From Bolinopsis microptera (Eukaryota; Ctenophora; Tentaculata; Lobata; Bolinopsidae), in contig NC_087073.1 in assembly GCF_026151205.1 (NCBI RefSeq), positions 22,824,987 through 22,888,986 of the forward strand: 64,000 bases of DNA. Direction: 5' to 3'. Numbering within the stretch: the first letter of the stretch is position 1; every line of letters starts with the position of its first letter. Below, piece by piece: positions 25,601-60,499 of the stretch. The position numbers and the translations under genes are program-made. The notes below the pieces were generated by a model. That model was not told the origin of the DNA. It did not search any database and saw only the letters and a list, made by a program, of their open reading frames with translations.

Positions 25601-28285
25601 GCCCTTTGCACCACTGAAAGATGCCCCACTGTAGCCCTGCACCACGGAAAGACCTCACCACTTTTAAAACCTGCCCCCACTGGGGAACCTTTCACCACGT
25701 AGACCGCCCCATGAAGCCCTCCCAACCATGTGCCTGCCCCAAAGTAAAAACCTGTACCTTTTTTAACCTGCACCACTGAAAACCCTATCCCGAAACCCTG
25801 CCCCACTGTAGCCCTGCACCACTGTAGCCTCACCATTTTGCCCCTGCACCACTTTTAAAATGCACCACTGAAAATTTTCACCCCTTAGACCTCCCCACGT
25901 AGCCCTCCACCACTTTTCCCCTTTGCACCACGTAGACCGAAACCACTGAAAGCCCCTTCACCACTGGGGCCCTGTCCACGAAAGACCGGGGCACCAATGT
26001 GGGCCTATCCCTGAAACCTGCCCCATTTTAGCCCTTCACCCCCTGTAGCCCGACCACGGGTTAGCCCTCCCACCACTGAAACCAAACGTACCTGCCCCAA
26101 ACTTAGCCCTCCCAACCATGTAGACCTGCCCCACTGTAGCCTGCCCAAAGTAGACCTGCCCCACTAAAGCCCTGCACATTTGTAGCCCTGCACCGGGGGA
26201 AACCTGAAACCACTTAGACCCCCCACTGAAGCCCTTACCACTTTAGACCTGCCCACTGTAGACCAAATACTGTACCTGCCCCACGGGAGCCCTGCACCAC
26301 TGTAGCCCTTCCCCAACTGTGAATGCCCCAAATGTAGCCCTTTCCCCCTTGTAGCCCTGCAACGAAAGACCTGCCCCCTTGTAACCTCACCACGGAAAAA
26401 CCTGCCCCCACGTAAAACCTGCCCCACTGTAGACCTGCACCACGAAGCCCTGCACCACTGTAGACCTGCACCACTGTAGCCTGCACCACTGAGACCTCAC
26501 CATGTAGCCCCTGAAACCACTTAGACCTGCACCACTGTAACCTGCCCCACTGTAGCCCTTTCCCCACTTAAACCCTGCACCACGAGACCTGCCCCCACTG
26601 TAACCTGCACCACTGTCCCCCTGCACCATGTAGACCTCCCCCCAAATGTAGACCTGCCCCACTGTAAAACCGGGCCCCAAACGGTAGACCTGCACCACTT
26701 AGCCCCTGCACCATTTAGACCTGCACCACTGTAACCGCCCCACTGTAGCCTGCACCATGAAACCCTTTGCACCACGGACCTGCCCCCACGTAGACCTACC
26801 ACTGTAGACCTGCCCCAACTGTAAAAACCTCCACCACGGACCTCACCATTGTAGCCTTTCACCACTGTAGACCGCACCAGGAAAACCCCTGCACCACTGT
26901 AGCCTGCCCCACTGAAAAACCTGACCACGAAAAACCGCACCCTGTGGGACCTGCACCACTGTAGCCTGCACCACTGTAAACCTGCACCACGTAGCCCTTT
27001 CACACTTTTTAGCCCTGCACCACTGAACCTGCACCACTTTTAGCCCTGCACCAGGGTGGGCCTGCACCACTGTAGCCTGCACCATTTGAAAACCTTCACC
27101 ACTGTGGGACCTGCCCACGGGTAACCTGCCCCCAAATTTTAGCCCCGCACCAGGGTTTTAGCCCTGCCCAAATTTGTGGGGACCTGCACCACTTAAACCC
27201 TTGCCCACTGTAACCTGCACCACTGAACCTGCCCCCACTGTAGACCTGACCACTGTAGCCCGACCACTGTCCCCCTGCACCACTGTAGACCTGCCCCTGT
27301 AGCCCTGCCCCACTGTAGACCTAAACCACTGTGGGACCTGCACCACTGTAGACCTGCACCACTGTAACCGCACCACTGTAGACCTGCAAAACTGTAGCCC
27401 TGCACCACGTTGATTTGCACCACGTAACCCCCACCACTGTGGGCCCTTTCACCACTGTAACCTGAAACCCCCCCACTTAGCCCTGCACCATTGTAGACCT
27501 GCACCACTGAAAGCCCCTTCACCATTTGTAAAACCTGCACCACTGTAGCCTGCACCACTGTGGGACCTTACTGTACCTGCACCACTGTAACCTGAACCAT
27601 TAAGACCTCACCACTGTAGCCCTGCCCCACTGTAGACCTCACCACTGAAGCCCTGCCCCACTGTAGACCTGCACCCGTGGGCCCTGCACCACGTAGACCT
27701 GCCCCAAATTAGCCCGCCCATTTTAGCCCTTCACCACTTTTAAGACCTGCACCACTTAGATGCCCCTGTAGCCCTTTGAAACCATTTGTAAAACCTCCAC
27801 TTTTTAGCCCTTAACCCTGTGCCCTGAAAACCACTGTAAAACCTAAAAAAAAAAAACCACTGTAGCCCGCACCACGGGAAACCCTGCCCCACTGTCCCTG
27901 CACCACTGTAGCCCTGCACCCTTTTAGACCTGACCACTGAGCCCGGGCACCACTGTAGACCTGAAACCACTGAGACCTGCACCATTTGTAGACCTGCACC
28001 ACGGTCCCCTTCCCCCCACTGAAGCCCTTCACCTCTGTAGCCCGCACCACTGTAGACCGGGCACCACGAGACCTGCCCCCTGTAGCCCTGCCCACTTTTC
28101 CCCTCCCACCACTGAAACCCTTTGACCATTTTGGGACCTGCCCCACGAGCCTTTGCACCACTTTTAGCCCCTGCCCCAAAGTAAAACCTCACCACGTAGA
28201 CCGCCCACGTGCCCTGCACCACTGTAGACCGCCCCACTGTGCCCTGCAAATGAAACCCTCCCCATTTCCCCTTTCACCCTGTAGA
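19650..28285. repeat. 16-bp minisatellite, about 8.6 kb
   Basis: The unit is ACCACTGTAGACCTGC. There are several hundred copies, with recurrent distortions (TAGA read as TAAAA, CTGCACC as CTGCCCC, CTGTAG as CTGAAAG or CTTTTAG). Two short interruptions of homopolymer-rich sequence are at about 23465-23640 and 23690-23740. The many minus-strand open frames rich in Gly, Val, Gln and Trp come from the repeat and are not proteins. Confidence 0.95.
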
Positions 28286-43345: not shown

Positions 43346-44384
43346 TCTCAATTTAATGAGATTTGTTACAATGTTTTAAATTTGAGTTACACTGACCTGT
43401 TGAACAGGGGGTCCTGGTCATTAAACCCCAGTATAACACAACATTACTGGTGGTGTTCCAATCTACTTCACTTTTAGTTCACCTTCTCTTTGATAAAAAC
43501 TAACGCCGCCGGCCGCACTCACTTTTCACCGCACAATTACAACAGTTCCAATTGCGTTTCATCACTCCGTTTTTAAAGTACTGTGGTTTCCGGGCTCGGA
43601 TTCGTATAAAAAGATCACAGATTCCCATGCAGAGTCACAACTCACTCGCTACAATGTTGCAAGTTTATATGTTATGATGTAGCTAGAATATTATTCACGT
43701 TGATTCTCGCTTAACTTCACACACAACTAAACTTAATAAGGATATCGCTTACAAAGGAGCGAGTAGCAAAAAGTTGGATGAGCTAATCGGCTTTGTCTGC
43801 TCTTTTCTCAACCAATCAGGAGCTTGTATTGGCGGATCCCACCGATAAGATGCGGTCATTACAGCCTCGTGATAACAATGTAATTACCGGCTTCTTCTCG
43901 ACATATTGGCTTAGGAATTTAGAGCTCTTAAACAAACAGAACATATTGGATACACTGTAGCAGAGTAACAGGGGTGTTGGAGATTAGGCAATGGATGCTT
44001 TTAACTCCGAGTTAGACATGATTATAATGAAATGTGTAGAAAGTGCGGCCAGTATTATTAACTCACAGTCTCCTGGCTAATATTCAGTAAAACCCCGATA
44101 TTCTAATTTACCGTCTAGTAGTATAGTGACTTTAATATACCGCGCCTCCATTTACTGCACCTCATAACTATTCCAGGGGTGTAGGAAAGGGGGGAGGGGC
44201 GGGGCGGGGGGGGGGGGGGGGAGGGGGCCAGGGAGGGGGGGGGGGGGGAAGGGGCGGGGGGCGGGCGACTGTATTCACATTATCCATGATTTGTTTCCTG
44301 AACAATTATCCTTTATTATAAGTTTGACAGTGATTAGAGAGTGATATTTATTTCGGTGCTTTACTTTACTCTACTTTATTTCAG
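43346..44384. other. End of the long intron
   Basis: This is unique-looking sequence. A G-rich patch lies at 44188-44268. The 3' splice site ACTTTATTTCAG is at 44373-44384. A TATAAAAAG word near 43607 is noted, but a promoter is not supported. Confidence 0.5.
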
Positions 44385-44516
44385 TGCAAAACGTTGGATT
44401 CGCAGCCACCTCAACTGGAGTAGGAGGGATGGATCATGCTATTCAGAGAATTGACTTGAAGTATGGCTCTTTTGGAACAAAAAGTCGAACAAAAAGTGAT
44501 GATTTTTGGATGAAAG
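44385..44516 (+). CDS. Semaphorin exon, middle of the sema domain
   Basis: Semaphorins are secreted or membrane guidance cues that bind plexins through a seven-bladed sema propeller. This 132-bp exon is bounded by TTTATTTCAG and GTAAGT and is phase 1 at both ends. Its 43 full codons run from QNVGFAATSTG through DHAIQRIDLKYGSFG to SDDFWMK. They fit the family pattern 'LYsaT..dF.g.d.aI.R......lRT...d..WL' that leads directly into the P-x-F-V segment encoded by the next exon. The splice joins Lys to Ala (G+CT) and gives WMKAPEF, matching the family's W-L-x-x-P-x-F. Divergent on its own; the assignment is secured by its neighbour. Confidence 0.8.
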
Positions 44517-44990
44517 GTAAGTTGACTATTATGTACTATACAGTGTACAGCCTAGCAGATAGGGCCCTGTGCGTGTAAATGATTTGCCATGATACGGTCT
44601 GTTTAGTTTATTCGATATCTCAGACCATGTAATAGATTGTCAATTAGTATACTTGCGAACTCACCCATCAGTTTCAAAATGAGAGATTTCGCTTGAAAAA
44701 CCACCGATAAGCATTTCAAGCGCGCGCGATGGCCAAACGGTATTTTTGTGACTGACAAATCAATTCCAACACAAATTTGCGCGCGCGTTGAGGGCGCGCA
44801 GCGTTGTTACACGCTGTTTGCTGAAGTGTTACCCGCGCTTCCTGGTTCGGACAGCTCACACTCTTAAATAAGGTATTTCTGGAGTCATTCCAACTGAGTG
44901 TAACTTGTATAAATGTGTTCGAATCCAAATGTATACTAATCCAAAATCAAACCTAGACTCTTCATTATTTACATACCTTGAATATTTCAG
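44517..44990. other. Intron between two semaphorin exons
   Basis: The donor GTAAGT is at 44517-44522 and the acceptor GAATATTTCAG ends at 44990. A CpG-rich patch with GCGCGCG words at about 44720-44810 stands out from the AT-rich surroundings. I see nothing else in it. Confidence 0.7.
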
Positions 44991-45224
44991 CTCCAGAATT
45001 CATCTATTCATTCGAAGATGACGAATACGTATACTTCCTCTTTAAAGAAATCGCCGCGGAAGAATTCCCCGAGCAAATTTATTCCAGAGTAGCTAGGATC
45101 TGTAAATCCGACGAGGGATCACAAAATCATTTCTTCAAAGATAACTTCCTGACTTTCGTTAAAGCGAGGATATATTGTCAGTACAGTAGGGACGGCTCTT
45201 CCCCCTACACCTTCGAATCAATAT
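44991..45224 (+). CDS. Semaphorin exon, conserved core of the sema domain
   Basis: The 234-bp exon (acceptor ATATTTCAG, donor GTGAGT, phase 1 both ends) encodes 78 residues. They carry signature sema segments: PEFIYSFEDDEYVYFLFKEI (family: P-x-F-V...YVYFFFRE), IYSRVARICKSDEGS (family: VYSRVARVCKNDxGG), FLTFVKARIYC (family: W.SFLKARLxC) and PYTFESI (family: FYFxEIQ). Both cysteines, after ARI and KARIY, are at family-conserved positions. This is definite homology to semaphorins. The class (1-7, or a plexin-like sema protein) cannot be told because the PSI, Ig, transmembrane or basic tail parts are not in view. No following exon was recognised in the window; the next intron contains the LINE. 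Confidence 0.93.
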
Positions 45225-45284
45225 GTGAGTAATATTTGGAGAGGGTCAACCCTAGTATTATAGTGATAAATACCCTTATATATA
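45225..45284 (+). other. Start of next semaphorin intron
   Basis: The donor GTGAGT follows ATCAATAT directly. The intron then runs into the 19-bp array. Confidence 0.7.
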
Positions 45285-45518
45285 GTGATACTAACATTAG
45301 TCACTAATACTAACATTAGTCACTAATACTAACATTAGTCACTAATACTAACACTAGTCACTAATACTAACATTAGTCACTAATACTAACATTAGTCACT
45401 AATACTAACATTAGTCACTAATACTAACATTAGTCACTAATACTAACACTAGTCACTAATACTAACATTAGTCACTAATACTAACATTAGTCACTAATAC
45501 TAACACTAGTCACTAATT
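45285..45518 (+). repeat. 19-bp tandem array
   Basis: The unit ACTAATACTAACATTAGTC occurs about 12 times, with a CACTAGTC variant in about every third to fourth copy. The LINE 3' end abuts its last unit. Confidence 0.95.
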
Positions 45519-45935
45519 TTTTTTATTAAATACTTTTCAAATTTTACAGAGTACAGCAATAGATGAATATAAAATAGAATCGTTCAAAATATCGCCCCCA
45601 TCTGTAAAATATGATGGGCACCCAAACACGGTAAACACATAGTGAACTATGTCCGCAGTAACTTGGACCCATTACATCGAATTAATCTAAATCCAAAAAT
45701 TTATGAAAAACTATTTAATAACAAACAAATCCATGGTGAATAACTGTGGATATAGAGTCAAAATTTGTATTTCAATACGTCAAATTCCAGATACATTAGA
45801 TACAGGTCTGAAATGGTCATTAATGTGTGAGAAGGTGTGCGGGTGAAGTGTGATATGATGTTGAAAGTATAGGAAGGTAGATACAAAAATTAATAAAACA
45901 AAAATAATAATAATATGGGGAGCAAAGAGACTAGG

Positions 45936-48900
45936 CTAGACTGTTGTTTCACTATCCAATAAACATTTCCATAGATGCTTAGTGACCTCAGCTTTGAAAA
46001 GACTAGTAGACACAATCTGTCTTACCTGTAAAGGAAGTCCATTCCACAGTATATGGGTTCTGTAGAAAAATGATTTTGCCAGTGGGCTATTTGAGGTACA
46101 TGTGGTGTGTGAATTCTGACTTAACTTAGGTAAAATTGATGACACAATAGACAGACTGTCGAGGTGGGAACGTCTTAGTCGAGAAGTGCCCTGATATAAA
46201 GAGAGATAGTGAGGCAGCGATACAGGAATTAAATTGTTAAGAACTTTGTGGAAAAAAATAAGATCATTCAAGTCAAACTTTTGAGACAAAGGGAGAATGT
46301 CGACAAGCTTGCACTTTTTGACATATTGCTCAGGTGGATAACTGCGGCCCTCTTCAGACAGAATCCATTTAATAGCTCTCTTTTGGAGACTTTCTAATTT
46401 ATCACTAAGTGATTTATTACAAGGGCGCCAGATTATGGAACAATTTTCGAATTGGCTACGAACCAGGGAGAGGTAAAGCGCCCGGCGACGTTTCTGATCA
46501 ATGACAATATGGCCATCTCTTCTGACCATACCAAGTTGTTGGCAGGCCTTAGTATAAATTCTGTCGCACTGACTATTCCAACTGAGCTTAGGAGTAACAT
46601 CGACTCCAAGATCTTTTTCTAACTCTACATACACAAGAGGAGAGCCATCAAGATTATATGCGAATGGAGGAGATAAAGATGGTTTTCCTGAAACAATAAG
46701 CACTTTACATTTTGCTGGATGGAATCGCATTTTGTTTCTAAGTGCCCAGTCAGAGAGATAGTCTATATCCATTTGTAAATTGATATTATCAGAAGATGAA
46801 TGTATTTTACGCCAGATTTTTGTATCATCGGCATATAAAACAATATCAGTATTATCCGAAAGGCCAAGAGGAATATCATTGATAAACAATACAAAAAGTA
46901 AGGGACCAAGGATAGAGCCCTGGGGGACACCAGAATTAACTGAGAGGGTAGATGACATCTCATTACCAATAACCACTCTTTGGTAACGGCCTTGAAGGTA
47001 ATTGGTAAGAAATTTGAGAAGTGTACCATCAATGTTATATAAGGTCTTTAGCTTATGAAGAAGGATATCATGATTTACAGAATCAAATGCCTTAGCAAAA
47101 TCAAAATACACAACATGATTGATAATGTTTTCGTTAAGAGACAATGCCAGGCTATCACAAAAATCAACCATATTGGTTGTGCATGACTTGTGCTCTAGAA
47201 AACCATGCTGCCTGGGATCAAGAAGGGTACTTGTCAAAGAAAGCAGTTTACGTTTAACAATGCGCTCAAAAACTTTCATGACTAAACAAGTAAGGGATAT
47301 TGGTCTATAGTTTTCAACCTCACTTTTCTTACCTTTCTTAAATATTGGGACAACATTTGCAAGTTTCCATTCTTGTGGAATGTAGCCGCTGTTGTAGGAT
47401 CCACGAAAAATGCATGTTAGAGGGTAAGCTAAACCTACGGAACAATTTTTTAGAATTTTACCGTGTATGCCATCTGGTCCCTGGGCTTTATTTGAATTAA
47501 TATTTGAAAGAAGCTTACGAACATCCCGATGATCGAAGTCAATATCAAAATCAACATCATTGACATAGGAGATGTCAGTGTCATAAAGTGAAGGATCCGA
47601 AAACTGGTTATAAAAGAAAGAATTGAAAAGTTCAGCTTGATCTTTGGGATTGAACCGAAGCTGTCCAGAATAACTAACACAATTAGGAATACGGCAAGAG
47701 TTAGATTTATACTTAACATGTGACCAAAACTTCTTAGTTATAAGCGCTGGATCATCACTATTAAAAAGATTATCTCTTATTTTGGCTGATGAGAGCCTCT
47801 TAAAATCTTTACGGCTAGTAACAAACTTTAACTCATCAGAAATAGAACCAGAAATTTTAAATTTAGCTCTGAGTCTATCTTTTTTACGGCATGAAGAAAA
47901 AAGTTCACTATCGAACCACGGGGGTTGGAACTCTGATTTAATAATTACTTTAGGAATATGTATATCAACTAAATTCATAATGCAGTCTTTAACTAACTTC
48001 CAAGACGAATCAGGATCTAGGCATTCTAGGACTTGCCAATTAATCGAGCATAATTCACGATTAATCATGTCCCAGTTTGCTTTCTTAAAATTATAGATTT
48101 TACGTTTAGGAGTTTTCTTACGGGAAAAGGAGCTTTTAATTGAAAAAGTGACAGGAAAATGATCAGATTTGCACACGGAATGAGGATCACAGACATTCAA
48201 GTTATCGATTGTGTTATCATAATTACTGAGAAGAATGTCTAATGTATTACCACTTTTATGGGTGGGTGATGTGATCAACTGGGAGAGAGAAAGATCACTG
48301 AAAGAATCTATGAAGGATTGCTCAATAGGTACGGTACTGGATGAAGATAGCCAGTCTGTATGGGGGAGATTAAAATCACCAATAACATAGATTTTAGGGG
48401 GATTCTTTTTGGAAACTAGCTTGCGAATATAACTAACTATGACATCATGATTAGGTAACCCAAGAGTTCCTACTCTATAACAAGTACAGATTACAATACT
48501 CTCTTTGTTAGGAAAAGAAATTTTAACGGCAAGCATTTCTGCACCTAGGCTAACTGGTAGTCGGGTTGTAGTGGCGTCGAGATCAGACCGAACAGCCAAA
48601 AGAACACCACCTCCATTTTCCCTAAACTTTTTAGGGTTATTAGGATCTTGAGGATGAGTCTTTCTCGTGCGGTCATTGCGGAAGATTTCATATTGAGAAG
48701 AAGGAAAGATTTCGTTGCTAGAAATAGATTTTTTGAGCCAAGTCTCATTTAGGGCAATTATGTCAGGCTGCTCTATGTTAGCAAAGGATTGAAGTTCGGA
48801 AATCTTATTACCATCAAGAAGGGGATGGGAGGAGCTTAGGTTACTGAAAGGAATGAGACCTTGGACATTTTGGTAGAGTACAGATAGGGAGTTGGGACCT

Positions 48901-49451
48901 GGATTAAGCATAGAAGGATTAACAAGAGTTATCAAAAGAAAGTTAAGAGAGAAAACCCAAAGAATGAATAAAGAGACTAGACGCCTGAGGCGGCTGGAAT
49001 ACTTGACTCTATTCATCTTACCAGGGAGAAGAACATTTCTTATAAACCATGAGGAGATAATTACAAAGAAAAGTTTGATGTGGGAGCAAGCAAGAAATGG
49101 TATAAGATAACGTGGGCTGTCAAGGAGTAGAGAGGAATGAATATTAGAATCTAGGGGGAATACGGTGTTCATGGACCTAACCGTGGAGAGAAGAATTGGG
49201 AGAAAGTAAGTCATGATGAGAGAATAGAAGAGAAACATATGATTATGATAATTGTAGTTGATGTGTGGGGTGTATGGAGACTTAAATGTGTAAATTTTGT
49301 TAGGTATAAACGTGTTGATATGTATAAGTGCATTTCTTGACTGTGTACGAGGCCTTTTGCATGCAAAAAGACCTATTCTAAGTCTAAACGATTCATTGTC
49401 TAACATATTGGAAAATGGACAGTGACCGAATGTACCTGAAATGGGAGGCAT
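45936..49451 (-). CDS. LINE ORF2: endonuclease-reverse transcriptase, intact, 1171 aa
   Basis: The protein nicks target DNA and copies the element's RNA there. Residues 1-180 are unusual: three hydrophobic stretches (about 71-91, 115-137, 158-177), then NPSMLNPGP at 178-186, a remnant of a 2A-like motif. The APE-type endonuclease follows (190-440): YQN 193-195, NETW 235-238, GDFNLPHTDW 358-367, SDH 429-431. The RT spans about 640-920: NYRPISL 714-720, motif A YFDFAKAFDSV 782-792, motif B GVPQGSILGP 841-850, and YADD 873-876. A C-terminal region extends to 1171. All catalytic residues are present and there is no stop or frameshift. The motifs place it in the CR1/Jockey assemblage. The ATG was chosen because it follows ORF1 by 97 nt; an internal start nearer the endonuclease is possible. 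Confidence 0.92.
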   Translation of the reverse strand: MPPISGTFGHCPFSNMLDNESFRLRIGLFACKRPRTQSRNALIHINTFIPNKIYTFKSPYTPHINYNYHNHMFLFYSLIMTYFLPILLSTVRSMNTVFPLDSNIHSSLLLDSPRYLIPFLACSHIKLFFVIISSWFIRNVLLPGKMNRVKYSSRLRRLVSLFILWVFSLNFLLITLVNPSMLNPGPNSLSVLYQNVQGLIPFSNLSSSHPLLDGNKISELQSFANIEQPDIIALNETWLKKSISSNEIFPSSQYEIFRNDRTRKTHPQDPNNPKKFRENGGGVLLAVRSDLDATTTRLPVSLGAEMLAVKISFPNKESIVICTCYRVGTLGLPNHDVIVSYIRKLVSKKNPPKIYVIGDFNLPHTDWLSSSSTVPIEQSFIDSFSDLSLSQLITSPTHKSGNTLDILLSNYDNTIDNLNVCDPHSVCKSDHFPVTFSIKSSFSRKKTPKRKIYNFKKANWDMINRELCSINWQVLECLDPDSSWKLVKDCIMNLVDIHIPKVIIKSEFQPPWFDSELFSSCRKKDRLRAKFKISGSISDELKFVTSRKDFKRLSSAKIRDNLFNSDDPALITKKFWSHVKYKSNSCRIPNCVSYSGQLRFNPKDQAELFNSFFYNQFSDPSLYDTDISYVNDVDFDIDFDHRDVRKLLSNINSNKAQGPDGIHGKILKNCSVGLAYPLTCIFRGSYNSGYIPQEWKLANVVPIFKKGKKSEVENYRPISLTCLVMKVFERIVKRKLLSLTSTLLDPRQHGFLEHKSCTTNMVDFCDSLALSLNENIINHVVYFDFAKAFDSVNHDILLHKLKTLYNIDGTLLKFLTNYLQGRYQRVVIGNEMSSTLSVNSGVPQGSILGPLLFVLFINDIPLGLSDNTDIVLYADDTKIWRKIHSSSDNINLQMDIDYLSDWALRNKMRFHPAKCKVLIVSGKPSLSPPFAYNLDGSPLVYVELEKDLGVDVTPKLSWNSQCDRIYTKACQQLGMVRRDGHIVIDQKRRRALYLSLVRSQFENCSIIWRPCNKSLSDKLESLQKRAIKWILSEEGRSYPPEQYVKKCKLVDILPLSQKFDLNDLIFFHKVLNNLIPVSLPHYLSLYQGTSRLRRSHLDSLSIVSSILPKLSQNSHTTCTSNSPLAKSFFYRTHILWNGLPLQVRQIVSTSLFKAEVTKHLWKCLLDSETTV

Positions 49452-49548
49452 AAAATTGAGAAAAAGATTAAATCAGAGATTTGTTTGAGTTTTAATTTTA
49501 GGCGCAACGTCTTAATCAAAATATTAAATGGAAGAAAAGATCAAAGAT

Positions 49549-50709
49549 TTAAATTCCCAGAAGATTATTTACAACCCTGTCAAAACTGTGTTCGTTTACA
49601 ACAAACTTAAGCCAAGTGGACAGTAAACCTACTCCTCTCATGTTGAGATGAAGCCAATCATGGTATAGAAGTTCATTACATGATCTAAAGTCTCGAGTTA
49701 AAAAGACTGAGAAACAGTCTAAGAACACGCAATTATTATTTAGGCATAAGTCTTTAAGTAGATTATTAAAATCTAGAACATTCTTTGCTATGTAGGAATA
49801 TAAACATTTAATAGGAAGACAACATTGGATAATTATAATTGCAGCGGGAAATAACTGCTTAGTGGTGTCAATTAATTCAGTAAGATACTTCCTAAGGAAC
49901 TGAACCCCATACTTAGAATGTTTAATGTCATTTGTACCAACACTCAATATAATTTTTTCAATATCGTCAGCTTCTGCAGCTGCATGAGTTTTATGAAAAT
50001 TATGAATGTTTTCAGTGATGTCTCTAATTTTTGCACCACTTTGAGACACATTGATTACTTTCCTTCCCCGGAATCCCAACTTATTTGTCCGTACGAATTT
50101 TGTCATTGACGTACCAAACAGGACAGTGGTTTTCCTGCTCTTCGGTTTTCTTGGAGTATTTCGGTAGTAAAGGGTTGGTGTTGAGGTGGTGGTGGGCGGC
50201 ATAGGAATTGTAGTGCGGGCAATCTGCTCCTTGACTACATTTGTATCTGTCTTCGGTATCTGGCAGCGAAAAGATAAGCTATACCGAGTCCCCTTAACTG
50301 AGCTCTCTGCACGAACCTTGTGAAGACAATATTCCTGACACCCCGGTTTCATAATATACAAACTACAGTCCTTTGGGGTGATATAGCATTTACTGTTACA
50401 TCGCTTATCCCCATTTTCTGGAATTATGTCGATGGTCCTCTCAGCTCCAAATGAAACTACATAAATACCTTGCGACTGGTCAAGAGACACCTCGTCGTCG
50501 TTGTGGTACCTAGTTGCACAAGAACCAGACTTGTACATGCTTGCTAGGCATGAGTTTAGCTTGCAGCCAAACTTGGAGTTGATATCATGCATAAGCTCTG
50601 ATATCCCAGGATAATTTAAAATATCGATTGGCTCCTTAGTCGTGGTGTGTCCATTTGAGGAAGACCATACATATTCTTCTCCAGTCGAAGTGATCCCACT
50701 TTGTGGCAT
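49549..50709 (-). CDS. LINE ORF1: AlkB-type dioxygenase fused to SGNH esterase, 386 aa
   Basis: Residues about 45-152 match AlkB-type 2-oxoglutarate/Fe(II) oxygenases, which remove alkyl groups from nucleic acid bases. NSCLASMY (52-59) precedes the iron ligands H69-x-D71 (in YHNDDE), the second His is H130 (in EYCLH), and the 2OG-binding R142-x5-R148 (RYSLSFR) is present. A Pro/Thr linker follows (165-200). Residues 195-375 match SGNH hydrolases: FGTS with nucleophile S201, G225, SVGTND (256-261, N260) and DWLHLN (D351, H354). CR1-type LINEs are known to carry an esterase in ORF1; the AlkB partner is unusual. Direct stop TGA lies just upstream of the ATG, but homologous-looking coding sequence continues in another frame (see 50636-50940), so the true start is probably lost by frameshift. 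Confidence 0.85.
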   Translation of the reverse strand: MPQSGITSTGEEYVWSSSNGHTTTKEPIDILNYPGISELMHDINSKFGCKLNSCLASMYKSGSCATRYHNDDEVSLDQSQGIYVVSFGAERTIDIIPENGDKRCNSKCYITPKDCSLYIMKPGCQEYCLHKVRAESSVKGTRYSLSFRCQIPKTDTNVVKEQIARTTIPMPPTTTSTPTLYYRNTPRKPKSRKTTVLFGTSMTKFVRTNKLGFRGRKVINVSQSGAKIRDITENIHNFHKTHAAAEADDIEKIILSVGTNDIKHSKYGVQFLRKYLTELIDTTKQLFPAAIIIIQCCLPIKCLYSYIAKNVLDFNNLLKDLCLNNNCVFLDCFSVFLTRDFRSCNELLYHDWLHLNMRGVGLLSTWLKFVVNEHSFDRVVNNLLGI

Positions 50710-50940
50710 TTTTCACAGCAGTTTGTTTGGCCATAAGTGTTTTCAAGTTCATTACATCAACGTGCCATGTGAACACTCCTTGTTCTGAACAAAACTGAAT
50801 GCCAAACTCCAAGAAGTCCTCGCATTTAAACAATTTCTCTTAAGATTTCATGACATTCTCAACACTGGCCTTGGAGACTTTCAGCTCATTTTAATAAACG
50901 AGTATAAACAATGGTAACAGAATTCATCCAAAGTGAAGTG
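50636..50940 (-). pseudogene. Decayed 5' coding part of LINE ORF1
   Basis: Upstream of the AlkB ORF the minus strand has coding-like pieces in shifted frames. Near 50940-50890 is FTLDEFCYHCLYSFIK. Near 50890-50835 is NELKVSKASVENVMKS followed by a stop. From 50833 the frame with CEDFLEFGIQFCSEQG and VMNLKTLMAKQTAVKNATK overlaps the start of ORF1. The second and third pieces share a frame across one TAA. This looks like an ORF1 N-terminal domain (possibly coiled) with one stop and about two frameshifts. No known domain is recognised. Confidence 0.5.
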
Positions 50941-52600
50941 GAGATGAGTAGGAGAAAATGCGTTGATGAGAGAAAATGGCGAAGTCCAATACTGTAGCCC
51001 AGGAATAGATGCGTTGCTTAGATACAAACGGTCCACGTCATAGTCTACCTTCTATCGCGTTTACATTGGGACCCTTATATGATTTCCAGGTAAGTGTAAC
51101 TATTTTACTTCACTCAATAGCTTTTGTACGCCCAGGTTTCGTGTCTTAAGTGATTACTTTGCTCGTCAACACCTACAGTACACCACATACAATGAAGAGT
51201 GAAATAACAACTATTTGGTAACATTGCTGCAGCTTAAAACGTTTGAGATCGCTCCGTGGTCATCATTTTGAGTGATGAATACCCAATGACAAACATAATG
51301 ACTTGTTCCCCAACTTAACACAATCTGAAAACTGTTATCAATGTACCATGGAGCTGACGCTTTCCCATCTTTACTGTCCCGCTGGAAATCATAGTTATCA
51401 ATTGCAAAATATGGTCTTGTTTTTTTGCAGATTTGTTTTAAAGGCACGTAGCAGTTGTATTCATCTAAACAATGTACCTTGGCGTAACTCTCGATGCAAT
51501 CTCAATGAGCTTTATTTTTGTATCTTCAGAAACATTAAGGCCCTTCGTTTCCGTAAAAATCTTTTTGCTCCGAGTACCTGTTGTGGATGGAGAGTCCTAA
51601 ACCAACAGATAATAGGGTTTCATTACTGTGAATCTGCTGTTGTGGGGCCATTAACATCACCTTTGGCTAAGCTTCTTCTCACAATCGATCATTTTTCGTG
51701 TTAAAGGAGAATGGAGCTGACACAGCAAAACTATTGTCTTGCTGGTTTCATTAGCTTAAATTGTGTAAGATCGCCGGAAACATCACCATACAGCAGCCAT
51801 TTCAGAACGATACAATCAAAATAGGAGACTGGAATGAGAAAAAACTCCTGTAAACGTCCATTTTGCTTAGCACTGCGTCCTTCCATCGACTTCGAATCAC
51901 AAGTGCTGCTTACGACTATCCACATATTAGATCCTCAATCAATAGCATCAACTGCCAAAGAGACAAACTCAAGTAGAACATACAGAAATCAGTACGTTTT
52001 TTAGTGTGTTCGGATGAAGACTATACCACTTAGATTGTCAAGAATCATTCCTTACTGTCTTTTTAGACTTATTTGCTCCAAGAACACTCTCATCGGACAT
52101 GAACATGGTGCGACGAAAAAAATTGTGACGTACTGTTTAAGTAGCTCCTTGGTATTGTTCCTAAAGTCTCAGTAACCAACAGTCTCGCACTTAACTAAAA
52201 GCCAAATAGAAACTCAAGTGACTACGGCCTGACCTGCTCGGTACTCTGCAACCTCTTCTGTTCAATTTGATCTGCATTCTCTCTAGCTTCAACCAAACAC
52301 TTCTTATGATACATGATATCTCCACAACCGCATCTGTGACAGCTCTCAAGCGAAATCCAAGCAGTTCATCAGAAGTGACCTAGCAATACAACAAAAAGAT
52401 ATCACTTACAGGGAGAGTGAGAACGAGATGCAGTGTAACAGCTGTCCCCCAGCAGAACAACACACGATTGCGAACAGAAATAAAATAGAAACAATTGAAT
52501 CCAGAATTTATCTATTAAGATTAATAATAATTCACAGTTTAATTAGGGTTAATATTTATCAATTACATCACCATCAACACGGCAAAACGGACACAAGGAC
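50941..52600. other. Unassigned region right of the LINE; two look-alike coding stretches on the minus strand
   Basis: Minus-strand stretches at 51211-51447 and 51731-51925 share a spacing pattern: S-x2-G ... F-x-I-x2-S ... W ... G-x5-L, e.g. SWGTSHYVCHWVFITQNDDH against PVSYFDCIVLKWLLYGDVSG. The DNA around 51235-51275 and 51750-51790 is also similar (AGCTTAAA ... GATCGC). They may be diverged duplicate exons or an old repeat. No known domain is recognised. The 5' UTR of the LINE may also extend here. Confidence 0.3.
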
Positions 52601-53860
52601 AATATCACGAAAATGAAACCGACATAAACACGCACACGTGACAATATCACGCAAAAAATCGGACATTAATCACGCCCAACAAGGGCTAATATTACGCAAA
52701 TAACAGACTTTATCACCACACAGGGACAATATCACGCAAATGAACAGACTTTATCACGCACACAGGGACAAAATCACGCAATTGAACAGACTTATCACGC
52801 AACACATGGACAATATCACGCAATAAACAGATTATATTACGCACACAGGACAATGTCCGCAAATAAACAGACTTTATCACGCACACAGGGACAATATCAC
52901 GCAAAAAAACAGACTTTATCACGCACACAGGGACAATATCACGCAAAAAAACGGACGTTAATCAACGCAACCCGGGATAATATCACGCAATGAACAGACT
53001 TACACGCACACAGGGACAATATCACGCAAATGAAAGACTTAATCACGCCACAGGTACAAAAACACGCAATTTGAACAGACTATTATCAAGCATCACAGGG
53101 ACAATAACACGCAATAAACAGAGTTGATTTACGCACACAGGACACTGTCACGCAAATGAACCAGACTTAATCAAGCACATATCAGGATAATATCAAGCAA
53201 ATGAACATAAAAGATTTTATTACGCACACAGGGACAATGTCACGCAAATGAACAGACTTTATCATGCACACAGGGAAAATATCACGCAAATGAACATGAC
53301 TTTAATCACTCAGCACAGGGACAATATCACGCAAAAGAACATACTTTTATCACGCACACGGGGACAATAATCACGCAAATGAACAGACTTAACACGCACA
53401 CAGGACAATATCACGCAAAATAATAACAGACATTATCACGCACACGGGTACAATATCACGCTAATGAACAGACTTTAATCACGCACACGGGACAATATCC
53501 ACGCAAAAAAACAGAGTTGAATTACGCACCACAGGGACAAGTCACGCAAATGAAACAGACCTTTATCATGCACACAACAGTGGATAAAATCACGCAAATT
53601 AACAGACTTTATCACTCACACAGGTACAAAAACACGCAAAGACAGACTTTATCACGCACACCAGGGACAATATCACGCAAATGAACATACTTAACATGCA
53701 CACGAGGGACAATAACACGCAAAAGTAAAGACATTATCACGCACACAGGAACAATATCACGCAAATGAACAGACTTTATCACGCCACGAAAGGTACAAAT
53801 ATCCAAGCAAATGAACAGATTATCATGCAAATAACCGTACTCCTACACGAACAATTATAA
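52600..53860 (+). repeat. 42-bp minisatellite, about 1.25 kb
   Basis: The unit is CACGCACACAGGGACAATAT, CACGCAAATGAACAGACTTT, AT, about 30 copies. The right half carries many single-base indels. Minus-strand open frames (LRDIVPVCVIKSV repeats) are artefacts. The (A/T)CACGC word occurs twice per unit, so the unit may be an old 21-mer dimer. Confidence 0.95.
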
Positions 53861-56800
53861 GAAAACACAATAGACCCTTGTTTTAATTATACCAATTTAA
53901 AAACGAAAAGTTGCGCATTCAATTAAAACTAAAACTGTCCTGTAACAAAACTGAAGACGGCAATGCTTTAGACTGTTAGTAATCCTACATTAGGATCAGA
54001 GATTAATTCGGGGATCTTTAATAGCAGGCTTTCCTGGACACACGATTTAGCTGACATGGTTCTCCTGAGAAAATAAAATAATCAATAACTCCTTTTTAGC
54101 ATATAATTCTATGTTTGCAACTGTCGACAGACGACAGGAATGCACAAATATGTAATTTTACATAAATTAAATTTAAAGGAACAAAAGGCACCTGTAAAAT
54201 TTTGAATTCAGTAAATTTTTTGAAATGCCTTAATTGGTAATCGAATCCAGTAAGAAGATGTGGCTTTAGTAAATACGTTGCATAAACTTTATACAAAAAG
54301 CACATAGACCGTACCGACACAATCGATACTTTACGCCCGTTTGCCCACCGTTGAATTTTACTATATGGAGCTAATTCCTAAAACAGATGCATGATACAGC
54401 CATATAGCAGGTCAATAGCATTTTTGGCCAAGATTTTTAGGTAGAATTTGGCACGTCTCCAGTACCTTTTGGTCTCCCCAAGATTCCGGCATGTACATTC
54501 ATAGAAGCATGTCGATAATTTCCGACACTAGCCTTGGTCAAAACCTAGAAACAAACACAATTAACTTATACATTATATAAGAGGACATAAATTTAGATTA
54601 CCATGTAACGATGTTCCACTGCATATAGATAATTCGGTACTGCACATTTGAAAGACAAAACTGGACTATACATAGCAAATGTTGTTGCTGATATTAATCC
54701 TGCAACTAGTTATTCGTTAACAAAATTTTGAAAATCAAAACAAAGCGGGATATAAATAGCAATTTAAACTACTTTTGGTTTGGTTGCCATGCACCTCTTT
54801 GGCCAAAGAATGCAGTTATCTAGTTAAAGTCGTACCCACTACGTTCAATTAGACAAATTCAAGTAATAGCAAAACTCGAAAGTGAGGACGGTTAAATTAA
54901 ATTTAAAAACCATACAAAATAAAAAGTAAGTTAGATAAATTCGAAATTCTAACAATATTTCTTGTGCACAAATATTCATGCAGTATAAAAATTTGAAAGA
55001 AGAGCACAACTACCGATAGCAGTTCAAAAACGAAAAATGTGAGAGGATCTTCGTCAATCGGGCACCCTGGAAGGCAGGGCGGTCCAACGCCCCAAACCCA
55101 TCGTGAGTTTAAGTCTTCCTACCACAGAGCAAACCGATATATGATCCCAGCAAGAGAGATCACATATCCCATCGTGCAACACAAATATATGTGTAAATAT
55201 AATGCATATATGCAGCGTGGAATACCGAAGGGACAAGTCTTTTTGCTTAATGTTCTAATGTATTACCAGACATTGTGATACCAGTTAACTTTAGCTATTT
55301 GAACATTCTAATTAAGTTCTTGAGACGAAATAATTAACAAACGCTAAATAAAGAAATAATCTATTCGCAAAGTACTCAAGTAACGGCAACCCATTTATCA
55401 TAATTTGTTTCATTCTAATCCAGAATAATATCAGAGAACGCGTTTTCCTGAGCACATATTGCTTTAAACAGATATTGCAAACGTGTTCTCGAGGTCGTAA
55501 AAAAAAAAACCCCTAGATTTGATATATAGCATGCAAATTCGACCAAAATAGCAAAAACACAGATTTTCACCTACACGCCGAACCCTCAAATGGGCGTGGC
55601 CAAAAAGGAGTTGGCGGGCGAGAAACAAAATTGCAACAAGTCTATTATTGTTTCGTAAGGGTCTTAAACTACCATATCCTCGTTGAGAAATCGATGTGAA
55701 CAAAAACCATCCAACGGAACTCCTTAAATCGACCACGTTTTCCTCCCCTGTACTAGTCTGTCACGGCTGAATTCCAATCCTTCAGCTCGGTATTACAGGC
55801 GAATTGTCCAGAATCCTCAGAAGCCTTCGTTCTGAAATGATCAAGAAAGCAGTGAAAACTGTGGTGAACAGGCGAAGACCAGAAACAAAAATCTTATGAT
55901 TTTGTTTTATCGGAGCAGGACAATTGAGGAGCTCAGCACCGTGTCAGTGAAGGGTTCTCATCAATCGGAGAGAAACCAAAATCCGAAGCTAGTAGAGTCC
56001 GGAAAGCTCAAACCTGTCAAGGCTGTGAGACCAAGTTTTAAGTGACTGCGGCAAGTTCAACAATTGTTTAATCATCAGATTTCCTCGCTAAATCGAAAAC
56101 CTGCGAGTCAACGAAAAGTTTAAAACTGTTTTTATGCAGCCCGAGAACGATCTCTACCAGAACAATAGAGCCAAGCAAAGAGAACACGTCAGGACATGAA
56201 AAAACAGTTAACTAGCGCCTGATAAGCTACACTTTTATCAGAAACGGTGCATAAAGAGTACTGATAAGACTAATAAGACTGCAGAAAGAGCTTTGTGGTG
56301 TTTTTTTAATAATTGATTATTATTATTGTATACAAGTTTTGTTTTTTGGATGATGTATTAACTCACTCTGTTTGCCCAGTCATGCACTGTCTTATTTCTT
56401 GACATTTGAGCAACACAAAACAGTCAGTTTTCGCGACATTTGTCAGATTTAGTTTTCAGTTTCTGTCAATTTCAAGCGCAACTTAGCTCTACTACTATAG
56501 TCTACTTCACTCACATTAAAGGATTTTTTTCGCCGTGCGTGTAGCTCCTTTCAAGTTTAACTTGGACGGATATGATTTATAAACGTCGATTATAATATTT
56601 ATTACTATATGTATTTTGTATCTATGTATTTTAGTAAATGGTCATTAGAACCACCGCACCGTTCCCGGGCCCAAACAAACAAAATTGCTTTATAAGCAAT
56701 TTTTATGCGAAATTGTCGCGCACCCGATAGTATTTTGTAAGAGTTTGGTTATATATCGATTGCTAGCGCTATTGTCAGTTTTAGCAAATTAGCTTACGCA

Positions 56801-57160
56801 AGTTAGCGCAAAATGTCTAAATAGGACTTTGTAATATTATTCGTCAGCTAACCAGTGCTAGCAGTACTATTCGACAGCTTGCGCTAGCAGTGCAATATAT
56901 TAAAATTGCTTTGCAACAAAAATGTGAAAAATATCCCCTAGTTTATTGTTTTCAGTGCATTAAGACTCATCGAAAGTATAGTATTCAGCGGTATATTTAA
57001 GTTCAAAACAGTTCTAATACAATTTAAAGATGACAGAATAAGAAATATTAATGTAGGTGGTATTTAAGAATTTGCGTAAATACCCCGCCAGCATGTAATA
57101 CGGAATTTCGACTTTGTAAAGCACCCGACATTATAATAAAAAAGAGATGAATTTGACCAA
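53861..57160. other. Unassigned AT-rich region
   Basis: I examined both strands for exons, tRNAs and transposon motifs and found none that I can support. Small hairpins occur (AATTGCTT-TAT-AAGCAATT near 56685). GCTAGC-like words cluster at 56760-56900. Confidence 0.4.
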
Positions 57161-57270
57161 ACCCATTATCATGGATCATGGGTAGAGTGACAGCTTCCAT
57201 AGTATTCTCTTTCCCCAACAAAAGGAATGATATTAATTTGAATAACCGTCCGCAATGCAAAATGATACCG
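57160..57270. repeat. Old repeat copy 1 (partner at 60500-60600)
   Basis: The two copies align over about 70-100 bp with the shared phrases GGTAGA.G, TCTC(T)TTCC, AA.GAATGAT..TAATTTGAATA. Divergence is high. Confidence 0.45.
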
Positions 57271-57773
57271 AGATTGAAATCGGTCGCTCGCTTTCCCATT
57301 CCAAATACAATTTTAATAGATTAAAAGAACTACCCGAAGGCAACTGTACTCGGCTATATAATTCAATAAACATCAGCTAATTGAACACTTTACTACCACC
57401 CTTATCCTAAATACTAGTAATCGACCCGAAAGCAACCCAAGAGAATGTTTACAGCATGCGATTCCAGATTGTACTGTAATTTATCGAAACGTAATTAAAA
57501 TCCGTATGCCGTGAATGATGGGAAATAGATTAAGGAATAAATCACATGTCTAGGAAAAATTTCGACAAGCATTTACTGCAGGAAATGTGTTTTCCATAGT
57601 GTCAGGAACCACCCAAAGATTTTTTTTGAATCTCGATCTGATTGTAAAACTTATTAGAGCCTACTTCTCCAAGCCGCCTAACTCAGCCTGAGAACCGCAC
57701 TGTCTATTCAAAACTCGTTACTATTGTTAGAAAGACACCTAGGAGCCCTATAGATGGGGTGCAAAATGACCCG

Positions 57774-57809
<36 letters not shown>

Positions 57810-60499
57810 TAATGACAATGATTGTTGGGCGAATCAGTGTTTCAGTTCATCATAGTATTAGTTCCCCCCCAAAACTTTTGGATCTATTTAATTCATCCGT
57901 TCGGGTGAGTTGTATCCAGTACTGTTCAGTGTTCGTTATTAATTTAGCACGTGAATTTTCACTTCTAAAGTATACACATAAATTAAGTTATAAATTCTAT
58001 TCCGCTTCATCTTTGCAGGTGCAACTATTTTTGTTTGTCTTTGCAAAATCCAGTAATTCAATAAAAAATTAACCATTTTTTCTAATTGTCTTATCATATT
58101 CTGTTATACCATGATCTTCAATGTTTTACCGGACTTTCTAATCAAGGAAGTGGAAATTAAAAAATATTTGTGTAAGTTCGTTATTGTTGAAATTCGAATC
58201 CCCAATAAATGAATTATTTCATAGACTGTAATCATCATTATACACAAAGGTATTGGCTAAACTCTCAATGTTCTCAATCCAACTGTCCCTATAGTCATAG
58301 AAATTCCATAATTGTTTTTTTTGTTTGTAAAATAGTAAAATGTGCTAAAATCTGAACCGTCCAGAATTAAGTTTTTTAATTCAATCCCCCTATCCCCCCA
58401 CTTTTTTTATTTTTTTTTTTACCGAACTATTATTTCAATGCTATGTTTAGAACCTGTAGGCTGTAAAATTAAATTAATATGGCTTTTCAAACAGGAAATA
58501 AATTAAAACTGTTATTTATAACTGATGTGATGTTAACATTAAATTAAGTTCCATTTGAGACCTCCGCCATACTAGGGTCTTTTAAACTGCAGTTATACAG
58601 TCCTTTAAACCAATACACGTATTTAACTACTATAATAATAAAAGTAATATACATAGTATATAACGTATTTTTTCTTTCGTTTTTATATACCATTTCTCTT
58701 TACAGATAAAAACTTTTGCTGTAGGTGTGCTTCATGGGCGTCACTATCAAGTTTAAACATCGAATATCCTATCATGCGGTTTCTCTTTACTACCCCTACA
58801 CTACTTCAAACAAAACAGATTCAAGTTTGAGTCCAAGTGAGCATACTACACAAACACATACACAGGATAAACATCTGCAAGTGTTTTCAAAAGAAACAGA
58901 AAACTCTCAGTCGACGAAGCACTGCAAGGGGCACGGTAGTAACCCAAAGTGCTTTTCCTTTCAACGCGACGAATAAACACTATCGCACCTTCTTTTAAAC
59001 AGAAAACTACACAAATCAAACCATCCTTAAATCAGAATTTGTCTGAATCTATCAGAAAAAGTCTAGAGCTTTTTTGACCAAACAAAAAGTATTACAAATA
59101 CTGTTTGAGGAGTCAAAGGACGTGTTTGATCTTTACCAGAAACATATATGCCTGATTACAAGAGTTTTTTGATGTATGTATAGCAGGAGAAATTTCAGTG
59201 TTTTAGCGTCTGTGTAGTTAGCATGGATGCCCAAAAGTGGCCCACGGACCTGTTTGATAACACATGTTGCACCCTCAGCTCATGAACATCTCATAAAAAA
59301 CTACCGATTCTCAAAGGAGTATTCCAATTGGTCAAGATTAAGAAATTGACGACCGTATGGTTTTCTAGAGAAATCAAAGGGCCCCGTTTCCCAAACAATT
59401 TATTACTCATTTTTTAGCGGCACAGGGTCAGAGAAAGTGAAGAATAACAAAGAGGCAAGGATAGTAAGATGTTACACCATCCACTTTATGTGGGACTTTG
59501 CGCAGGATGGGAGACTAGATACCGGTACTAGATGAGCCCCCATGATCACGAATGCAGACTTAATACATGCTGTTGCTCCGTACGCTAAAATATTTGCATG
59601 TGTTAGAAACCCTAACGGAAAGACTGTATTCATAGTATCTTACTTTGGCGTGGTGGAACACCCACAGAAATTTCACCTCGTAAGATTTAGTTTGAATTAA
59701 GAAAAATAATCGTTGCCTCAGAAGAAAACCCTTAAAAATTGCTGTTACCTCTTCATATCATGTCCACCAAAATTGGAGGTTGCACTTGGGGTTTATTTTG
59801 CTTACACGACTTATAGACGTATTAGGGGTAACCTTTTAACATTAAGTTTGAATGAATACAATTTACATCCGATAGAAGCTCTCACACAAAATTTTTAATC
59901 ATTATGTGTAACAAACCAATTAAAGATTTGTGGTGGTGGGGATATTTTATAGAAATTCTAAAGACAAGCAATGTTAACAACAATAGAAAGTGAGCATAGG
60001 TAATATCTTAGTGGAAACAGCAAGTATATTGGATGAATTCTATAGCCCTTATAACTCCGAGATATCGAAGCTTTTAGGGGATACAAATTTCTTTTTTCGT
60101 TAAATCTATTATTGTTTGTATAATATGAAAAAGCGTGTTACATTGTTTGGATCACTGATTTGTGATTGCTGGACTTGGACTTTGGTTTTAATCGCTGTCA
60201 CTATGTATTGAGTCTATGGATAATTCATTATAATTAAGGTTTAATTTAATCTGAATACTAATTTTTTTCAATAGAACGATTAGGATGGCAGATTATCTTG
60301 ATTTATCATCGAAATTGTATTGCTTCAAGTTTTCAATTTTTTTCGATGGCCTTAATTACTACCGACTAAATGAAATATTAGTGGAATCGTATATTTCTAA
60401 TCGCCCACCTTTTCTGTCATATCCAACTTAATCAGAAATTTGATCAAAATATATTACCAAACCCAGATTAGTGTAGAGAATTGATACATGTAGCGGTGA
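57271..60499. other. Unassigned AT-rich region
   Basis: It has a poly-A run of about 30 at 57774-57804. Several short open frames (57812-58072, 58725-58976, 59713-59898) have ordinary composition but no family signature and no convincing pair of splice sites. I do not call them genes. Confidence 0.4.

Follow-up and report, generated by a model that had tools for sequence, protein, structure and literature searches.

We found that a long interspersed element (LINE) of the ctenophore Bolinopsis microptera carries a first open reading frame (ORF1) in which an AlkB-type dioxygenase is fused to an SGNH esterase, and that two unrelated element classes of this genome, LINEs and Helitrons, bear this pair of domains in reversed order. 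The element lies in a stretch of 64,000 nucleotides, in the following called the window (assembly GCF_026151205.1, contig NC_087073.1, positions 22,824,987 to 22,888,986). Its ORF1 protein (ORF1p) is predicted to consist of an N-terminal region of about 80 aa, an Fe(II)/2-oxoglutarate (2OG) dioxygenase of the AlkB type, a Pro/Thr-rich linker and the SGNH esterase. We slightly favour the view that this is a young two-ORF LINE with an apurinic/apyrimidinic endonuclease (APE), whose ORF1p combines the esterase with an AlkB demethylase that would remove methyl groups from the RNA, and possibly the cDNA, of the element. A preliminary description of the window, made from its letters alone, had proposed the fusion as well as such a function; the present analysis confirmed the observation and partly supported the interpretation.

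All AlkB and SGNH motif residues named in that description were found at their positions (Table 1). In a phmmer search, residues 33-152 of ORF1 matched human ALKBH3 with an E-value of 1.4e-8, with the HxD motif, the distal histidine and the RxxxxxR motif aligned. A weak match to human ALKBH2 (residues 36-148, E 0.005) likewise aligned the iron ligands and RxxxxxR, and PHROG 21963, annotated as "alkylated DNA repair", was matched with an E-value of 7.3e-16. A Pfam profile search, which the preliminary description had named as a check, bore out the esterase but not AlkB in the window copy: PF13532 was unmatched and PF03171 reached 17.5 bits, below its cut-off of 23, with sibling L101 (see below) behaving likewise. 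When one AlkB sequence per family of transposable elements (TEs) was aligned (8 rows, 17-80% pairwise identity; families see below), all five active-site residues were invariant, with 16 of the 144 gap-free columns being invariant overall and a chance of 9e-6 for this coincidence. In a 67-row alignment H69, D71, H130 and R142 were invariant, while R148 was kept in at least 90% of the rows.

Since a single-sequence AlphaFold2 prediction of the 386-aa frame was uninformative (predicted local distance difference test, pLDDT, of 32.7), we modelled the AlkB domain alone using an alignment. The model (mean pLDDT 83.8, predicted template-modelling score 0.79) contains the double-stranded beta-helix expected for an AlkB protein. 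A Foldseek search with it returned ALKBH2 (E 4.5e-9), ALKBH3 (1.2e-8) and E. coli AlkB (3.7e-6). In the structural comparison ALKBH2 and ALKBH3 were tied, with Z-scores of 16.4 (root-mean-square deviation 2.8 over 143 aligned residues) and 15.5 (2.4/140), followed by AlkB at 13.5 (3.3/141), ALKBH5 at 11.5 (3.5/133) and FTO at 11.2 (3.8/147); this ranking speaks for the listed families and does not exclude an unlisted one. The predicted fold is ALKBH2/ALKBH3-like. A structure search of BFVD also returned AlkBs of giant viruses and plant viruses. The preliminary description had seen in the HxDDE form of the iron-binding motif a closeness to viral AlkBs. This was not supported: HxDDE also occurs in human ALKBH2 and ALKBH3 and in an ALKBH2-like gene of the host, and is therefore not virus-specific, and the best solved folds are cellular. 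A viral ancestry is neither supported nor excluded, the AlkB tree presented below being built without plant-virus sequences.

For the SGNH half, residues 215-359 exceeded the cut-off of the Pfam model Lipase_GDSL_2 (E 2.1e-12). The best solved match of residues 196-364 was the ORF1 esterase of the zebrafish LINE ZfL2-1 (PDB 4c1b, E 1.2e-5). Over five families (6 rows, two from family A) S201, G225, N260 and H354 were invariant, and the DxxH with the catalytic acid was kept in families A and D. A tblastn search with the SGNH part against phages and plasmids gave no match.

A search of the 264.65 Mb assembly of the species gave 108 ORF1 matches. Among these, 29 loci (L100-L128) are siblings of the window copy with 94-100% identity. 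An uninterrupted ORF1 of 460 aa is found in 24 of the 29, and residues 6-386 of the window copy, the part alignable to most siblings, correspond to its C-terminal portion. For this reason, and due to a frame break upstream in the window copy, the 386-aa frame is not the entire ORF1; the preliminary description had taken it as such, while its assignment of the AlkB-SGNH fusion to ORF1 stands. Within the fetched DNA, at least 465 residues of ORF2 lie beside ORF1 in 28 of the 29 siblings and only 21 in the remaining one (L105). Given the high identity and the many uninterrupted frames, the family looks young, and intact copies exist. Decayed relatives (38-43% identity, many stops) are also present.

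Besides this family, called A, the genome contains four more ORF1 families of 451-474 aa (B, L129; C, L130; D, L131; E, L133) with the same layout of N-terminal region, AlkB, linker and SGNH. In one representative of each of the families A-E, ORF1 is followed by an endonuclease-reverse transcriptase (EN-RT) frame. The fusion thus stands upstream of other EN-RT ORFs, in siblings as well as in other families, and the refuting conditions named in the preliminary description did not overturn it. With the AlkB model PF13532, whose cut-off is 31.2, families B-E score 51-63 bits. Three of these families exceed the cut-off of Lipase_GDSL_2, and D passes only Lipase_GDSL, barely (23.8 vs 23.6 bits). 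A profile of six family rows reached ALKBH3 with 4.7e-12 and 4c1b with 3.6e-12. In a sixth family (G; L146, 646 aa) the AlkB domain scored 82.6 bits, above the PF13532 cut-off, and SGNH a sub-threshold 26.8 bits; an APE endonuclease follows (L149, PF03372 29.8 bits). About 3 kb beyond the window, L150 holds a further AlkB domain (80.7 bits, above the PF13532 cut-off) with an SGNH-like stretch in another frame, as judged by eye.

Over the whole genome PF13532 has at least 151 matches, many with recurring open-frame lengths; the count is a lower bound, since 150 of 587 candidates were scored. The best match, C5:18690430, is a host gene with HxDDE, which we take to be ALKBH2-like from its likeness to human ALKBH2. 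The Helitron model Helitron_like_N (PF14214) has 41 matches. At six places it lies 3.6-4.5 kb from an AlkB match on the same strand and in an open frame of equal length (3388, 3366, 3321, 3226, 2459 and 2225 aa). We read the N-terminal part of two of these frames (L145, L147) and found SGNH followed by AlkB, the reverse of the LINE order. Their AlkB domains scored 80 and 77 bits, above the PF13532 cut-off; their SGNH domains (E 6e-7 and 4e-6; 30.5 and 27.8 bits) did not reach the Pfam threshold of 32.9 bits. It is these frames that place the domain pair in a second element class. SGNH, AlkB and Helitron_like_N are joined in one giant frame in both, and in L147 (1235-1735) the ORF immediately upstream of this frame contains a 2A-like DVETNPGP. 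With 150 of 1695 candidates scored, a genome map of the endonuclease model PF14529 was not dense enough to match the remaining AlkB frames, which measure for example 551, 593, 611, 676, 707, 778 and 843 aa, with endonucleases.

An EN-RT tree of families A-E, two decayed relatives and LINEs from contigs of bacterial metagenome-assembled genomes, without named reference elements, united A-E and the decayed relatives in one clade (support 100/100). In the unrooted AlkB tree (26 rows, support mark 95/80) families A-E, G and the Helitrons (J) were split from the rest at 89/91, which does not exceed the mark. The opposite side held L150, the host ALKBH2-like gene, ALKBH3 and the AlkBs of bacteria and phages; the placement of L146, L150 and the host gene is unsure due to long branches. 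Family D was sister to the Helitrons (93/85). Its AlkB is 41% identical to that of a Helitron over 170 residues (BLAST), compared to 29-32% with A, B, C and E (MAFFT alignment, a measure not quite comparable to BLAST). Together, grouping and identities suggest, with moderate support, that AlkB was exchanged between LINE and Helitron, in either direction. A recent capture of the host ALKBH2-like gene was not supported, as that gene is 29% identical to the window AlkB over 98 residues and stands apart in the tree. Comparing families C and E, we obtained dN/dS ratios of 0.175 for AlkB (Fisher 1.4e-13), 0.091 for SGNH, 0.132 for the N-terminus, 0.37 for the linker and 0.097 for ORF2. Purifying selection was thus detected in this one family pair.

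ORF2 of the window copy begins 97 bases after the ORF1 stop, and PF14529, PF03372 and PF00078 all exceed their Pfam cut-offs in it, as expected of an APE-type LINE (Jockey superfamily, CR1/L2). A Pfam search of this ORF2, an APE endonuclease joined to a reverse transcriptase, gave no integrase match, and the direct repeats at 44000-60000 are tandem arrays, none of which flanks the element as long terminal repeats (LTRs) would. In families A-E (including L129, L130, L131 and L133) ORF2 starts with an extension of 160-190 aa that ends, directly ahead of the endonuclease, with a hydrophobic stretch and NPGP; the latter was found in one representative of each family. GDVExNPGP forms occur in L008 and L147, and GDIxxNPGP forms in L020 and L021.

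Table 1. Features of the window copy of the element (window positions; residue numbers refer to the frame named).
Feature	Position	Strand	Basis
ORF1 as open in the window copy, 386 aa	49549..50709	-	ORF translation
AlkB-type 2OG-Fe(II) dioxygenase domain, ORF1 residues 6-152	50254..50694	-	sequence and fold searches
AlkB active-site residues	H69 50503-50505; D71 50497-50499; H130 50320-50322; R142 50284-50286; R148 50266-50268	-	
SGNH/GDSL esterase domain, ORF1 residues 196-364; S201, G225, N260, D351, H354	49618..50124	-	
ORF2, 1171 aa: N-terminal extension, APE-type endonuclease, reverse transcriptase	45936..49451	-	ORF translation, Pfam
RVT_1 domain, ORF2 residues 708-918; YADD from 46835	46698..47330	-	Pfam
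NPGP (degenerate, 2A-like), ORF2 residues 183-186, immediately before the endonuclease	48894..48905	-	
5' region of the element, where coding sequence related to ORF1 stands in a different frame (frame break of the window copy)	50710..51073	-	
3' tail, about 12 copies of a 19-nt unit, after AATAAAAAAAATT	45288..45517	-	

To our knowledge the 19-nt unit of the 3' tail has a length unusual for a LINE. At the other end, homology to most siblings stops at 51073. A further stretch of 5' sequence, at least 1.1 kb long (51074-52189, 90%), is common to the window copy and L108 and absent from the other fetched copies. A 42-nt 5' unit is present in many of the others, and L104 and L123 have a 43-nt unit of another kind. 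Perhaps these variable 5' ends are swapped promoters. As the 5' end of the window copy is unsure, we do not claim ATATAAGGGT, found at 51080 and 45281, as a target-site duplication. A tandem array of 28 copies of a 42-nt unit lies upstream of the element (52597-53788). Elsewhere in the window, 199-1572 on the plus strand is a piece of another LINE reverse transcriptase (24% identity to ORF2). Overlapping long ORFs on the minus strand at 21044-28249, of low-complexity, repeat-like sequence rich in Gly, Ser, Tyr and Val, are probably a degenerate repeat and not genes.

No relative was found in IMG/VR when ORF1, ORF2 or the AlkB part served as the query; an RT-motif scan of the same database gave one locus, whose RT is bacterial and group-II-intron-like as judged by eye. 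A scan of genome contigs with the full ORF2 gave no match, and with the RT motif 17 loci. In the DNA searched around these 17 there was no ORF1 match at E-values up to 1. LINE RT sequence was present in sixteen contigs filed as bacterial genomes (L007-L022); we infer that these LINEs are contaminants, that is, eukaryotic DNA in assemblies filed as bacterial. Among the 11 loci whose upstream regions were inspected by eye, L007, L008, L009 and L012 showed Cys/His clusters resembling plant homeodomains (PHD), as did L020 and L021, where the clusters share the frame of the endonuclease; L014 and L017, with upstream ORFs of readable length, showed none.

Esterase ORF1s as well as an AlkB domain in a plant LTR element are already known. 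The type IV (esterase) ORF1s of CR1/L2 LINEs, e.g. ZfL2-1, resemble the window element in having an SGNH esterase upstream of an EN-RT ORF2, but the words "AlkB" and "dioxygenase" are absent from the main texts of PMC4120745 and PMC3905857, in which such ORF1s are described. The classes of LINE ORF1 named in excerpts of PMC4120745 comprise RNA recognition motif, coiled-coil, PHD, zinc-knuckle and esterase domains, with no nucleic-acid demethylase among them. According to excerpts of PMC9289625, a Ty3/gypsy retrotransposon of Phalaenopsis carries an AlkB-family domain that is a demethylase in vitro; in contrast to the LINE domain it is ALKBH5-like and a separate ORF of a plant LTR element, and "esterase" does not occur in the main text. 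Bdelloid GDSL/DEDDy ORFs (PMC5408684, excerpts) are similar as accessory enzymatic ORFs across different element classes, though "AlkB" and "Helitron" are absent from that main text. Human ALKBH2 and ALKBH3 and the host ALKBH2-like gene share HxDDE, the distal histidine, RxxxxxR and the fold with the window AlkB but are free-standing cellular repair enzymes, from which the TE AlkBs are separated by the split described above. AlkBs of plant RNA viruses and giant viruses show the fold in other parasitic genomes but are not LINE proteins. In literature titles and the beginnings of abstracts, with Repbase reports, preprints and closed journals outside this scope, we found neither AlkB in a LINE ORF1 nor the AlkB-SGNH fusion nor AlkB in Helitrons.

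Enzymes of the ALKBH2/3 kind remove 1-methyladenine (1-meA) and 3-methylcytosine (3-meC), adducts that stop polymerases, and Helitrons pass through single-stranded DNA (ssDNA). We infer activity, substrate and benefit of the AlkB domain as follows. ORF1p would coat the element RNA, and the AlkB domain would oxidatively strip N-methyl groups at the Watson-Crick face (N1-methyladenosine, m1A; 3-methylcytidine, m3C) from this single-stranded RNA, possibly also from the cDNA, such that the element's own RT then meets an unmodified template. The rolling-circle machinery of Helitrons would likewise meet an unmodified template on ssDNA. Removal of modifications from the element's RNA or cDNA is plausible. 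In an R2-RT protocol m1A impedes reverse transcription, and AlkB treatment improves the capture of tRNA 3' halves (PMC12140624, excerpts). An ORF1p bound along its template and bringing the eraser with it would act likewise inside the cell. The esterase might localise or assemble the ribonucleoprotein at membranes, a role suggested for ZfL2-1 in excerpts of PMC3905857 and PMC4120745.

Several points weigh against this reading. Within family A, its two subfamilies differ in the AlkB region by about 1.6 synonymous and 5.9 nonsynonymous changes, a ratio near 1, such that either the changes are too few to tell or constraint is relaxed; constraint is not visible there. Families B, C and E have another residue in place of the acid D351 (with a D one position off in B), so that the SGNH half may not be an enzyme in every family. 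Demethylase activity is a prediction, and the common fold leaves the substrate undecided, with m6A (N6-methyladenosine), DNA bases or protein being possible. Finally, Helitrons have no RT, and a purely RT-centred role therefore cannot cover all carriers. That they too have the AlkB domain suggests that the substrate common to all carriers is single-stranded nucleic acid, or that the domain helps to evade a host control based on modification. A wider reading, to which we give somewhat less credence than to the demethylase of the LINE itself, would make AlkB and SGNH a travelling accessory module, exchanged between Class I LINE ORF1s and Class II Helitrons in one genome, that rids the single-stranded RNA or DNA of these elements of methyl adducts by which polymerases are stopped or silencing is directed.

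Rather unlikely, in our judgement, is that the AlkB domain erases host-installed m6A from element transcripts to evade degradation or silencing. Such an eraser would be useful to any transcribed element, Helitrons included, and the orchid Ty3/gypsy AlkB demethylates m6A in single-stranded RNA in vitro (PMC9289625, excerpts). Slightly more doubtful is a DNA-directed role, in which LINEs and Helitrons would use the domain for anti-silencing or repair of their DNA (1-meA/3-meC in cDNA or ssDNA; N6-methyladenine or other silencing marks). ALKBH2/3, solved with methylated DNA, do act on DNA, and the presence of the domain pair in both classes and the ssDNA intermediates of Helitrons would fit, but LINE ORF1p is mainly a cytoplasmic RNA-binding protein. 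It is improbable that the fold is an inactive nucleic-acid-binding or assembly module of a gag-like ORF1: ORF1s are generally RNA-binding proteins and the few changes in the family A AlkB are near-neutral, but none of the residues that bind iron or 2OG varies in any of the 8 rows, a constancy that a pure binding fold would not require. The view that the motifs match by chance, or that a host gene lies next to a LINE, for which only the missing Pfam matches of the window copy would speak, is refuted by the ALKBH3 alignment, the PF13532 matches of four other families, the active-site invariance and the linkage of ORF1 and ORF2 across siblings.

A demethylase shared across element classes is possibly a new principle. 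In the LINEs, an RT and a putative demethylase come as natural pairs, which might serve to read modified RNA. The recurrence of the domain pair in several LINE families and in Helitrons suggests a common means by which mobile elements keep their nucleic acids free of modification. It would become directly testable whether transposons in animals are restrained by base methylation of RNA (or ssDNA), because the eraser appears to be encoded by the element, and this in many young copies, several families and two element classes.
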